Assembly (NCBI GenBank): GCA_023132075.1
Contig: JAGLYT010000084.1
Location: 1-6,922, forward strand
Reading direction: 5' to 3'
Length of the DNA: 6,922 nt
Source: JAGLHV01 sp023132075 [NCBI: bacterium]
GTDB lineage: Bacteria; CBDUZB01; JAGLHV01
Below are positions 860 through 4,432 of this stretch, one piece after another. Below the pieces are notes generated by a model that ran no database searches, was not told the origin of the DNA, and saw nothing but the letters and a program-made list of their open reading frames with translations. Position numbers and translations under genes: made by a program. The stretch's first letter is position 1. Every line of letters starts with the position of its first letter.

Positions 860-1066
860 TTATCCTTTTGCTTTTTCCGGGGTGGTTAATTGTCGTATGG
901 TGGCTTCCAGGGTGTTCTTTTTCTTTTTTAGTTTTTTATAGGTTGTTTCTACTCCTGCTAATTCTTTTGATGTCTTGGCTGAGTCGTCTTTTAGTTGTTT
1001 GACCAGGGCTTCGGTGGTTTCAAATTTGTATTCTTTGCCGGAAATTTTTGTGGTTAGTTTTACCAT
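860..1066 (-). CDS. Small charged coiled-coil protein (68 aa), unknown function
   Basis: The protein has 68 residues. The N-terminal third (VKLTTKISGKEYKFET) suggests two short beta strands. From about residue 18 to 62 it is a Lys/Glu/Thr-rich helix with hydrophobic residues at heptad-like spacing (L21, L24, L39, L49, L56, I60), consistent with a coiled coil. There is no signal peptide or membrane segment. The start is fixed by AAGGAG at 1078-1073, six bases before ATG 1066; the longer reading from 1135 has no such site. It lies 68 bases downstream of the SIR2-TPR gene on the same strand and ahead of the terminator, so it is probably the last gene of that operon. I count 38% G+C, visibly above its neighbours. 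I do not recognise a family; an accessory or regulatory partner of the SIR2-TPR protein is possible but unproved. Confidence 0.68.
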   Translation of the reverse strand: MVKLTTKISGKEYKFETTEALVKQLKDDSAKTSKELAGVETTYKKLKKKKNTLEATIRQLTTPEKAKG

Positions 1067-1072
1067 GGGGAA

Positions 1073-1078
1073 CTCCTT
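1073..1078 (-). promoter_or_regulatory. Ribosome binding site that sets the start of the 68-residue gene
   Basis: AAGGAG lies six bases upstream of ATG 1066 on the minus strand. It shows that translation begins here rather than at the in-frame ATG at 1135, which overlaps the stop of the SIR2-TPR gene and would add 23 residues (starting MDFPFLFVTIIP) translated from the spacer. Confidence 0.8.
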
Positions 1079-1134
1079 TTTTGTTATAAGGCTGTAATAT
1101 GGAATTATGGTAACAAAAAGGAAGGGAAAGTCCA

Positions 1135-2913
1135 TTATATGGAATTTTCTAAATTTTTATATTTTTCTGACTGTTCATAATTTCCGGTTTTTTCATAAGC
1201 AAGAGATAAATTATCATATACTACTTTTAAATAATGATATTGTTTTGTTTCTTTAAAAATCCCCTCTGCTTTCAAATAATACTCTATTGCCCTATTATAT
1301 TCTCCTAATCTATGATAAACAAGCCCTAAATTTGTATAACATGCTAATTCTCCTTGCTTATACCCAATTGACTTAGCAATCTTTAATGATTTCTCCTGAT
1401 ATTCTATTGCCCGCTGGAAATCTCCTAAGCTCTCATAAACAGTACCTAAATTTACATAACATTTAGACTCTTCTGCCTTATCCCCAATTGCTTTAGCAAT
1501 CTCTAAAGACTTCTCATAATATTCTATTGCTCTCTTGTAATCTCCTAAGCTATCATAAGCAACACCTAAATTTGTATAGCATTTAGATTCCCCTGCCTTA
1601 TCCCCAATTGCTTTAGCTATCCCTAAAGACTTCTCATAATATTTTATTTGTTTATTGTAATTTGAAATATTATAAAAAATCCGACCAGCGATAAAGCTTT
1701 TGAAAGAACCTTCCCCTCCTTCCAATCCTTTAGCCCACTCATCAACATATTTTCTCCATTTAAACGCTCTTCTTTTCTGTTCTGTTTCAGATGGGATAAG
1801 TTCGTATTCTTCTTTACTAATGTCTTTAAGTGAAATCCAAATGTTTTCAATGAGCGTGTTTATATTATATCTTATCTTTTTCCCGGAAAAACTTTTGAAA
1901 GGGTTCTTTTCTTCCTCTGAGGAATTCTCATTTTCCTCTTTTTTTAGATCTTCTATTTCTTCTTTGGTAGTAGAGTGATCAACATAGATTATTTCTTTTT
2001 TGTTTTCCCCTATATTTTGTATTTGCGGTGTTATGTCAAATTCGTCAGAACAGCTATAGCCCAGGATTAAAACCTTTTTGTGCTTTCCACTTGAAAATAT
2101 ATGTCTTATTAGAGCCTTTCTCTTATCAGAAAGAACTTTACTTGCTACCCCTTTCATTGTTGTCCTTATGCTCTTGTAATCTTCAGCACTTCCATGTATT
2201 TTGAAAATTCTTATTTTTTTATGCCCGTCATCATTAAAATCTATCTCTGAGAAATGTTTTTCATTATAATATACTTTAAAATCTTTATCCCTCTTTAACT
2301 CTTCTTCTTCTAATGCTCTCTCGATAAGTAAATCAAAGTTGGTTGTAAATATATTCTTAGCCAAACCCACTTTAGCAAGTTTTGCAATTAAAACATGATT
2401 TGTATTTATTTTTTTCTCGTCCTTATACATATTTAAAATATCAGGAATATCTAGGTTCTCTGCAATTATCTCCATAAATAGCTCAAAAGGAATGCTATGT
2501 TTAATCTTTGAATAAGGAATATTTTCCCGGCAAACAGCTAACATTTTTTTTTGCTTAATCTCATCGTCTATTAATTCATATATTAAATCTTCAAAATTGG
2601 TTTTAAATAAGAGGTTTTCTTCTCCTGGATTTTCAAACAATTCATGCCACGAAGTATCTTTCTCTCCAAAAATATTTTCCATCTCTTTTTTTGGCATGTA
2701 TCCGTAAATATCTTTTTTATCTACCGATAATTTTTCAAGGATGTATAGCTTTAAATCATTGGCTAATGGTACTCCCGAATTTAAAGAAATCCCTGCTCCG
2801 CAATATATTACTAATTCTTTTTCTTTGATTGAATTAATTGTTTTCTGTATACAATCTTGCAATTCTGCTCTTGTTTGGGCTTCTTTTGATTTTGTAATGG
2901 TTGGAAAATTCAT
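1135..2913 (-). CDS. SIR2-like NADase domain fused to tetratricopeptide repeats, probable defence effector
   Basis: The protein has 592 residues. N-terminal SIR2-like Rossmann domain (about 30-315): the nucleotide-binding GAGIS (39-43), TTNFD (190-194) with the NAD-handling Asn192, and KIHGS (238-242) with the catalytic-type His240 are all present, plus a closing LILGYS strand (282-287). The cysteine pairs of zinc-binding protein deacetylases are absent, which favours NAD+ cleavage, as in the SIR2 effectors of Thoeris, DSR and SIR2-Argonaute systems. A Glu/Lys-rich linker (315-340) and a helical region lead to TPR units of 40 residues from about 404 to the end. No P-loop NTPase module is present, so it is not an Avs/STAND protein. 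The TPR part probably senses a trigger or mediates oligomerisation and releases the NADase. AAGGAAG at 2928-2922 lies eight bases before ATG 2913. The membrane-protein gene ends only 33 bases upstream, suggesting co-transcription. Domain calls are firm; the antiphage role is inferred. Confidence 0.9.
   Translation of the reverse strand: MNFPTITKSKEAQTRAELQDCIQKTINSIKEKELVIYCGAGISLNSGVPLANDLKLYILEKLSVDKKDIYGYMPKKEMENIFGEKDTSWHELFENPGEENLLFKTNFEDLIYELIDDEIKQKKMLAVCRENIPYSKIKHSIPFELFMEIIAENLDIPDILNMYKDEKKINTNHVLIAKLAKVGLAKNIFTTNFDLLIERALEEEELKRDKDFKVYYNEKHFSEIDFNDDGHKKIRIFKIHGSAEDYKSIRTTMKGVASKVLSDKRKALIRHIFSSGKHKKVLILGYSCSDEFDITPQIQNIGENKKEIIYVDHSTTKEEIEDLKKEENENSSEEEKNPFKSFSGKKIRYNINTLIENIWISLKDISKEEYELIPSETEQKRRAFKWRKYVDEWAKGLEGGEGSFKSFIAGRIFYNISNYNKQIKYYEKSLGIAKAIGDKAGESKCYTNLGVAYDSLGDYKRAIEYYEKSLEIAKAIGDKAEESKCYVNLGTVYESLGDFQRAIEYQEKSLKIAKSIGYKQGELACYTNLGLVYHRLGEYNRAIEYYLKAEGIFKETKQYHYLKVVYDNLSLAYEKTGNYEQSEKYKNLENSI
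1222..1701 (-). repeat. Tandem 120-bp TPR-coding repeats
   Basis: This stretch encodes four consecutive 40-residue TPR units (about residues 405-564) sharing the pattern CYxNLGxxYxSLGDYxRAIEYYEKSLxIAKxIGDK. The period is exactly 120 bases. Aligning 1381-1500 with 1501-1620, I count 100 of 120 identical bases; 1261-1380 against 1381-1500 gives about 84 of 120. The first unit (1582-1701) is more diverged in its N-terminal half. Conservation at DNA level, not only protein level, points to fairly recent unit duplication. Confidence 0.88.
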
Positions 2914-2946
2914 TTATTATTCTTCCTTTTTGAAATTTTGTTGATT

Positions 2947-3561
2947 TTATTTAATTAGTGATTTAAATTTCTCAAGATATCCTGTCTTTTCCAAAACTGT
3001 TAAAAAAGCAGCCAACATTGTAATTAAATAAAAAACACCTTTAATAATTCTTCCTGCTATTGATGTCTCTATTTTCTTTTGGTTAAATCCTATTTTCCCA
3101 ATAATTTTAAATGGTAACCCCACAATATAATCTAATATTAAACACAGCCAAAAGAATGGATTAATAGTCCTAAATAAAGCATTAAGTCTATCTTCGCTAT
3201 AAATACCTATTGCTCTATCTATAAAATCCATCAATTGTTGTGGATCAATTTGGAATTCATATAAATTGAAAATGTTGATGACTAAATCAATGTCTCCTGC
3301 AAATCCACCTATGGCACGAGGGGGTGAATAACACATAACCGGCTTAACTCCGCTTAAGATTATGAGAGAATACATCCTATCTAAATTCATGTTTATTGTT
3401 CTTCTCAATTGTTTTGCTTCTTCATTTTCATATACTCCTAAACCAATATCTGCATCCTCCACATTATCAAAATAATTAACAACATTTTTTCTAAACTCAA
3501 CCAAAAGTTTTGTTCTGTTCCGATTTTCCAAAATTGTTATTTTTTTATAATCCCCCATCAT
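2947..3561 (-). CDS. Protein with soluble N-domain and two C-terminal membrane segments, partner of the SIR2-TPR gene
   Basis: The protein has 204 residues and no family I can name. Residues 1-130 look soluble and mixed alpha/beta; a central segment (79-120) holds PPRAIGGFAGDIDLVINIFN and reads like a conserved core. Two hydrophobic segments follow, about 134-153 (NPFFWLCLILDYIVGLPFKI) and 172-190 (IKGVFYLITMLAAFLTVLE), joined by a short loop, with a lysine-rich tail. There is no signal peptide, so the soluble part is probably cytoplasmic and anchored by a C-terminal hairpin. GGAG at 3571-3568 serves either ATG 3561 or ATG 3558. It lies 33 bases before the SIR2-TPR gene on the same strand and so is likely co-expressed with it. 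It could be a membrane sensor, anchor or second effector for the NADase; a simple neighbour with no link cannot be excluded. Confidence 0.8.
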   Translation of the reverse strand: MMGDYKKITILENRNRTKLLVEFRKNVVNYFDNVEDADIGLGVYENEEAKQLRRTINMNLDRMYSLIILSGVKPVMCYSPPRAIGGFAGDIDLVINIFNLYEFQIDPQQLMDFIDRAIGIYSEDRLNALFRTINPFFWLCLILDYIVGLPFKIIGKIGFNQKKIETSIAGRIIKGVFYLITMLAAFLTVLEKTGYLEKFKSLIK

Positions 3562-3592
3562 AATATTCTCCAGATTTATCTTTCACATCTTT

Positions 3593-3857
3593 TTAATCAT
3601 CATCTTCCCGGCTAATGTTAAACACTGCCCAGATGGGACGATGGTCGGATACGACTAATTTTGCTTTTGTATCGTCATTATTAAACATTGTTTGGTCAAA
3701 CATGTCAATGCCTGAATTTTGGTTATATTCGGTTAAATATTCGTTTTGAAACCAAAAATTATCATATAAGCTTGTATCTGTAACGGTGGTTTTATTGGGT
3801 GGTTCGATTAAAAAGGTCATTGTGAAAATGGTTTTTAAATTGTCAACGGTTCGTTGC
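3593..3857 (-). pseudogene. C-terminal remnant of a DNase I-like (endonuclease/exonuclease/phosphatase) protein
   Basis: In this frame about 88 residues match the tail of the EEP superfamily: a TTVTDTSLYDNFWF segment, the MFDQTMFNND segment, and SDHRPIWAVF near the end, whose Asp-His pair is the last catalytic motif of these metal-dependent phosphoesterases. The rest of the family (about 200 residues with the Asn, Glu and first His/Asp motifs) is missing. The reading frame continues upstream only as the shadow of the nucleotidyltransferase remnant. No good ribosome site precedes the internal ATG codons (3862, 3820). The stop lies 31 bases before the 204-residue gene. It is probably non-functional. 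Family assignment rests on the SDHRP and YDN motifs. Confidence 0.65.
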
Positions 3858-4028
3858 AGCATTTTCTTCAGTAGCCCTAATCCAGATGTCAATATCATTT
3901 GTACTGCGAGAAATATGCGTGTAATGTAATGTAGCATAAGCACCTACTATTAGATATTCTACTCCATGCTTATTTAAGGCATTCAAAAAATCTATATAAT
4001 CATTTGTGTACGATTTTTCTGGTCCCAT
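3843..4028 (-). pseudogene. N-terminal remnant of an MNT-fold nucleotidyltransferase
   Basis: This encodes 61 residues. Residues 10-57 are typical of the first third of minimal nucleotidyltransferases of the AbiEii/MntA type: FLNALNKHGVEYLIVGAYAT, then RSTNDIDIWI with the DxD metal-binding pair (D46, D48), then ATEENA. The usual VGG is VGA here. Homology stops at residue 57 (3858) and the frame ends four codons later at TGA. The downstream bases belong to a DNase I-like tail in another frame, so a deletion or recombination has removed the rest. Intact relatives are 180-250 residues and often act in toxin-antitoxin or abortive-infection pairs. An active enzyme is unlikely here. Confidence 0.65.
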
Positions 4029-4209
4029 AAATTTTTTTATTTACCCTCATAGTTTTTGGATTTTTATGCAAAATGTTAACATGGTAATTGTACATAATAA
4101 AATAAACACTTTTTAATGTTTCATTAAATGTTTTTGGAATTTCAACATGGTGGTTATCTATTGGTGCTTGACCATAGAAAAAATCTTTAAAATGCGATAT
4201 TTTTTTCAT
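4000..4209 (-). CDS. Small ORF of 69 residues at the head of the operon, unknown
   Basis: GAGG at 4220-4217 lies seven bases before ATG 4209, and a good promoter (4274-4246) lies just upstream, so this is probably the first translated ORF of the minus-strand block. The protein is soluble, basic and rich in His, Asn and Lys; residues about 22-52 (VEIPKTFNETLKS through HKNPKTM) look like a real protein core. The last ten or so codons overlap the nucleotidyltransferase remnant in a different frame, so the C-terminus may be an artefact of a frameshift. I recognise no family. It might have been a partner gene of the nucleotidyltransferase, now degraded. Confidence 0.45.
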   Translation of the reverse strand: MKKISHFKDFFYGQAPIDNHHVEIPKTFNETLKSVYFIMYNYHVNILHKNPKTMRVNKKIYGTRKIVHK

Positions 4210-4245
4210 TTTCCATCCTCTTTGAATTTTAAGTTTTACTTAATT

Positions 4246-4274
4246 ATTTTATATTTATTCTTTGGTGGTGTCAA
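4246..4274 (-). promoter_or_regulatory. Promoter of the minus-strand accessory operon, TTGACA-N17-TAAAAT
   Basis: The minus strand shows a consensus -35 box TTGACA (4274-4269) and a five-of-six -10 box TAAAAT (4251-4246), 17 bases apart. Transcription would begin near 4239, about 30 bases before ATG 4209. It is the only strong promoter I see ahead of the SIR2-TPR block on that strand. Confidence 0.6.
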
Positions 4275-4432
4275 GAAATTTTTGAGTGAGTAAGGATCAA
4301 GATTTATTCTGACTTTTATTTTTTTAAGCACATTTATTTTTTACAAACAGAATAAAAAGCACATCTTTTTTTTAATTTTTATTGCTTCAGAAAAGAACTT
4401 AAAACATTTTTTAACCACTACTAAAAAACGTC

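Follow-up and report, generated by a model that had tools for sequence, protein, structure and literature searches.

The stretch of DNA analysed here, which we call the window, is 6,922 nucleotides long and constitutes an entire contig (C373) of a draft genome of 1,874,619 bases in 389 contigs that is 86.71 percent complete; the source phylum is represented in our collection by three genomes of a single genus. A preliminary description of this DNA had placed a gene for a SIR2-TPR protein 33 bases after an ORF of 204 residues on the same strand, and the ORF list agrees with that arrangement (Table 1). Neither ORF has arisen by chance, because the SIR2-TPR protein has strong domain matches and the 204-residue ORF has homologues in distant genomes. 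Purine-rich, ribosome-site-like stretches can be seen 5' of both starts, as judged by eye only. Given their proximity, their shared strand and a gap free of terminator-like matches, the two genes may be co-transcribed; over the window as a whole, promoter- and terminator-like sites are in no excess over shuffled sequences. No tRNA or Rfam family was found in the window, and PADLOC recognised no defence system among the seven window proteins scanned.

Table 1 Features of the window, with positions counted from its first nucleotide
Feature	Positions	Strand	Basis or remark
SIR2-TPR protein, 592 aa	1135..2913	-	ORF; SIR2_2 and TPR_12 matches
TPR array, 40-residue units	1144..1695	-	residues ~407-590; TPR families, model, DNA repeats
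SIR2-like domain	1924..2826	-	residues ~30-330, edges estimated; motifs, SIR2_2, KomC alignment
Intergenic gap, 33 bases	2914..2946	-	free of terminator-like matches on both strands
204-aa neighbour with a soluble N-terminal part and, C-terminally, a two-helix membrane hairpin	2947..3561	-	ORF, model, profile
Predicted membrane hairpin of the 204-aa protein	2983..3165	-	residues ~133-193; hydrophobicity and model
Stretch with both genes, not found in sister genome G001	1084..4422		interval from the conserved M23 gene to a repeat of 117 columns

Genes for an M23 peptidase, a bactofilin and a transporter are conserved in the sister genomes G001 and G002, with DNA matches that end at window positions 4423 and 4418, respectively. 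In G001, 396 bases past the end of the match are followed by a repeat equal to window 969-1083 (86 percent). Because the repeat comes after only 396 bases, the stretch carrying both genes is absent from the syntenic place in G001; beyond the repeat the window and G001 do not match, so that its copies could have arisen independently and the edges of the absent stretch are not fixed. The G002 contig ends before the site of comparison. The repeat itself, of about 105-117 bases, occurs at window 969-1083, at L017:1483-1587 and at L039:5490-5604, and a short, coiled-coil-like ORF (window 860-1135) starts within it. One copy sits between SIR2_2 genes on contig C64 of the same genome as the window, and another in G001.

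Just upstream of the pair, positions 3593-4028 contain what looks like a scar of recombination or deletion, made up of two fragments: the start of a nucleotidyltransferase-like gene (DUF6036, E 0.0037) and, in another frame, the end of a nuclease-like one (MnuA, E 0.011), both matches falling below their cut-offs.

The SIR2-TPR protein and its relatives

Pfam matched the SIR2-TPR protein with SIR2_2 (PF13289) over residues 187-325 (E 1.4e-13; 51.6 bits against a curated cut-off of 24.5) and with TPR_12 (E 1.3e-47, above the curated cut-off). All of the SIR2 motifs named in the preliminary description were located in the protein: GAGIS starts at residue 39, TTNFD at 190 (Asn192) and KIHGS at 238 (His240). 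The same description had the SIR2 domain fused to TPRs without an NTPase module, which holds in that no NTPase (NACHT, NB-ARC or other) is among the Pfam matches listed (25 of 28 families), and the span of residues 330-400 is too short for one. A structure model made without an alignment consists of helical repeats from about residue 421, with pLDDT mostly above 70; its residues 1-417 are unusable. The TPR units are also repeated in the DNA with a period of 120, as three copies of 161 nt at 71 and 75 percent identity (window 1248-1648). A fast-changing sensor is expected to show such DNA-level repeat units, and here they hint at recent expansion or exchange of units.

The best PADLOC matches were to TPR models, to ThsA (2.9e-11), to the SIR2 of SIR2-Ago (1.5e-10) and to SIR2 models, with pAgo-type matches restricted to the SIR2 part of the protein. 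In NCBIfam, the NAD-dependent deacetylase model NF010736 reached 3.1e-5, far under its cut-off, and the model for a SIR2 family anti-phage-associated protein, NF042942, gave 12.7 bits against a cut-off of 500. From its motifs and domain matches, SIR2-TPR is likely a NADase. It might instead be a regulator or a deacylase-like enzyme of host physiology rather than a defence NADase, which we regard as unlikely: the weak deacetylase-model matches and the absence of a known defence gene from the window are consistent with such an enzyme, but the SIR2_2, ThsA and SIR2-Ago models match better than the deacetylase models and, unlike a core gene, this one is found in one genome of the genus and is missing from another.

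Single-protein scans, which reach close relatives only, found no such relatives of the SIR2 domain in genome_contigs, plasmids, phages or viral_contigs, and at E 1e-8 the only one of 386 genomes to yield relatives was its own. There, contig C64 holds two more SIR2_2 genes, one of which can be aligned to SIR2-TPR over 397 columns at 22 percent. These two genes lie within 4.5 kb of each other (L017, 404-1390 and 2498-4297), one with a weak TPR match, and a PilQ-like fragment sits between them.

The 204-residue protein and its family

Two hydrophobic 19-residue windows above 1.6, starting at residues 133 and 168, and the long C-terminal helices at 135-156 and 168-193 of a structure model with a mean pLDDT of 81 agree with each other, and with the preliminary description, on a predicted C-terminal membrane hairpin in the 204-residue protein. 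The description had also called this protein unrecognised, and it remains so in four profile libraries: no curated family cut-off was reached (Pfam CamS at E 0.039, PADLOC RT_UG23 at E 0.01, NCBIfam GrpE at E 0.14), and PHROGs gave no match at E 0.01. Searched with Foldseek, the model had no match in the PDB (best E 0.94) or in BFVD (best E 0.54). A second structure comparison placed the KinB sensor domain first, over residues 9-136, with a Z of 7.3 that falls in a range common for helical bundles.

No relatives of the protein were found in genome_contigs, plasmids, phages or viral_contigs. A single-sequence search at E 0.01 found homologues in 4 of 97 other genomes, one of which, G060, was dropped as weak. 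The G060 match (E 0.00265) covers residues 26-92 at 33 percent within a 727-residue frame, and it is absent from a profile search at E 0.001. The profile search matched 4 of 385 other genomes. Further members came from the phylum of G007 (2 of 77 genomes, one new) and from that of G159 (23 of 132, 22 new), and none from the two other genomes in the class of G042, for a total of 27 rows outside the window with G060 excluded. Against a reciprocal profile built from 21 of these rows (L073-L093), the window protein gave E 1.8e-14 and the six remaining rows gave E 4.3e-6 or lower; none of 260 neighbouring background ORFs matched at E 10. By these sequence matches, the search confirms the 204-residue protein and the 27 rows as one family, new here.

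In a tree of the family, which has a long branch at L041 and a bootstrap that had yet to converge, the window protein clusters with L014 and L015 (97/87), inside a group of seven (95/98) apart from the 21. The genomes of L014 and L015 share only the taxonomic domain with that of the window, and because the nearest relatives are so distant from the host, the tree points to horizontal transfer of the family. Signs of mobility occur close to some copies in the group of seven: a tyrosine-recombinase-like gene is found 145 bases from the copy in L071, and the copy in L016 is 194 bases from a tRNA-His and about 7.5 kb from a recombinase-like gene. The homologue in L015 (G097, ~8788-9309) carries an in-frame TAG stop.

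Elsewhere the family has neighbours of a different kind. Of the 21 loci L073-L093, all from one phylum, 18 have Gat or purine genes near the family copy; these gene identities rest on an NCBIfam assignment of one copy each. An alpha/beta hydrolase ends no more than 11 bases ahead of the family gene in 12 of these loci, GatA lies ahead of it in seven, GatB follows within 126 bases in eight, purN/C/H follow in 14, and GatD and GatE precede it in four. With P for the family gene, the common order is hydrolase-P-GatB-purN-purC-purH, and GatE-GatD-P in the four (for example L092:6422-7021). No Gat, purine or hydrolase neighbours were seen at L077, L087 or L089, or at the six loci of the other group. 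The family is thereby linked to two kinds of tRNA amidotransferase (GatAB and GatDE), and may merit a study of its own.

Co-occurrence of the two families and interpretation of the pair

The preliminary description had proposed the two genes as a candidate two-gene immune module, an idea that would fail if homologues of the two did not occur together elsewhere. Around the 204-residue family, the SIR2_2 profile matched in none of the 27 loci (1230 ORFs, E 1), flanks permitting; a version built from half of the set recovered all 37 held-out SIR2_2 segments. On the SIR2 side the nearest homologue, L014, has a visible flank of 242 bases, and L080, L074 and L071 have 577 to 779, too short in these four for a firm profile call; on their ORF lists no SIR2-like gene directly follows the family copy. 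Four homologue genomes were tested for SIR2_2 as a whole. Two of these family carriers, G007 and G159, gave no SIR2_2 match at E 0.001, and the single matches in G042 and G097 lie on a different contig and about 2.16 Mb away, respectively.

The comparison was also made from the other side, across SIR2_2 homologues at large; true orthologues of SIR2-TPR were not found. At E 1e-6, SIR2_2 matched 64 of 386 genomes, that of the window included, at 81 places. The examined set, likewise of 81 places and not counting the window, comprised the 76 outside the genus, one of G042 and four within the genus, and all have an ORF except L188, a frame with a stop. At least 700 bases are visible upstream of 72 of the 80 ORFs, and on both sides of 65. 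The 204-residue family profile matched around none of the 81 at E 1. Within the genus, G001 has no SIR2_2 match and G002 has four; the places in G002 with E 3.1e-5 and 5.5e-5 fall outside the examined set. In summary, the two families have separate distributions in the genomes sampled, and homologues of the two genes were not seen together from either side, some flanks being short.

Other SIR2_2 proteins with TPRs also bear on the pair. Pfam was run on ten of the 80 ORFs, of which three had been selected because they match TPRs and seven because their size is 577-679. Three of the ten proteins scanned (L181, L183 and L196) combine SIR2_2 with TPRs and match no NTPase at a threshold of E 1e-3, a count that is not to be read as a frequency. 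As in SIR2-TPR, SIR2_2 is followed by TPRs in these proteins; in contrast to it, they span 577 to 1148 residues with TPR arrays of differing length, and their loci hold no relative of the 204-residue protein. None of the three has a same-strand membrane-protein gene directly upstream. Upstream of L181 there is a frame of 367 residues, antisense to a long ORF that by eye resembles a dehydrogenase. Among the ten, NB-ARC was found in two (L126, above the cut-off, and L141, below it and with TPRs), CHAT in one, and SIR2_2 alone in four. The CHAT protein (L127:3603-5642) has 679 residues, with the CHAT peptidase domain ahead of SIR2_2, and the same genome has the similar-sized L140 and L152.

A lineage-specific two-gene module, whose membrane protein would detect membrane disturbance, or would anchor or restrain SIR2-TPR, is on this evidence disfavoured, and we rate it as quite unlikely. 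The short gap free of terminator-like matches, the common strand and the location of both genes within the stretch missing from G001 are what such a module would predict, and with L014 and L015, the family copies closest to the membrane protein, in distant genomes, a single recent pairing is possible. Set against these points are the lack of co-occurrence in both directions, the two of four homologue genomes without SIR2_2, the SIR2_2-TPR fusions that have no such upstream gene, and the presence of the family beside housekeeping genes. That a member of an old membrane-protein family was recruited beside SIR2-TPR to form a young module, reporting membrane disturbance to the TPR array, is in our view very unlikely. 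Decay of one or both genes, carried along in a rearranged stretch and idle in their host, is highly improbable: the gene fragments in different frames just upstream and the internal stop codon of L015 would fit, but both window ORFs are open across the full family length and retain their motifs.

SIR2-TPR and the 204-residue protein are more likely chance neighbours than a new two-part immune system, judging from the sequences compared. We favour, with modest confidence, a one-gene, TPR-sensed SIR2 NADase that would act by abortive infection, beside an unrelated and horizontally moving membrane-protein gene. The cue that the TPR array would detect is probably a protein produced or perturbed in phage infection, and its detection would release the N-terminal SIR2-like domain, which would hydrolyse NAD+ and leave the cell arrested. 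Our guess is that activation could proceed by assembly on ligand binding. The 204-residue protein belongs to a separate family and probably shares the variable stretch with SIR2-TPR without a common function. We infer NADase activity, TPR sensing, cell arrest and anti-phage defence for SIR2-TPR, its defence role being suggested by family likeness and patchy presence. A small membrane protein next to an effector can mislead when judged from one genome, and here the distribution of its family proved to be separate.

Comparison with known SIR2 systems

A literature search, for which subscription papers were largely out of reach, gave no account of this pair or of a one-gene SIR2-TPR defence; eLife 52696 does not contain the term SIR2. 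No Argonaute or PIWI match, as would mark SIR2-Argonaute (SPARSA), was seen among the window proteins scanned. With Avs5 (SIR2-STAND), SIR2-TPR shares an N-terminal SIR2-like NADase domain and a C-terminal repeat-type sensor. The Asn of the TxN motif is required for defence by Avs5 (PMC12931631). A STAND NTPase lies between effector and sensor in Avs5, whereas SIR2-TPR has none in that position among the Pfam matches listed, and so falls outside the SIR2-STAND architecture.

Thoeris ThsA is likewise a SIR2-like NADase, and SIR2-TPR matches its PADLOC model. A TIR protein produces the signal that triggers ThsA via its SLOG domain; SIR2-TPR, in contrast, has TPRs instead of SLOG, and no TIR domain, as in ThsB, was found in the seven proteins scanned with PADLOC or the ten scanned with Pfam, within a view limited by the contig ends. 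KomC of Kongming is a SIR2-domain NADase whose GAG, TTN and HG stretches align with those of SIR2-TPR. In this weak phmmer alignment (whole-sequence E 0.0033), His240 falls on KomC residue 146, which is changed in PDB chain 9xvc_H. KomC differs in having 264 residues and no TPR, and its Kongming partner genes were not seen in the window.

DSR1 and DSR2 are one-gene SIR2-like NADases with a large helical sensor part. SIR2-TPR resembles them in being a single gene with a SIR2-like domain and a helical sensor part, and differs from Dsr1 in that its sensor is a canonical TPR array and its score against NF041818 is 11.7 bits, below the cut-off of 1400. As a compact protein without the NTPase switch of the Avs type, SIR2-TPR would join the likely one-gene NAD+-depleting defences, and it poses the question of how such an enzyme is kept off without an NTPase.
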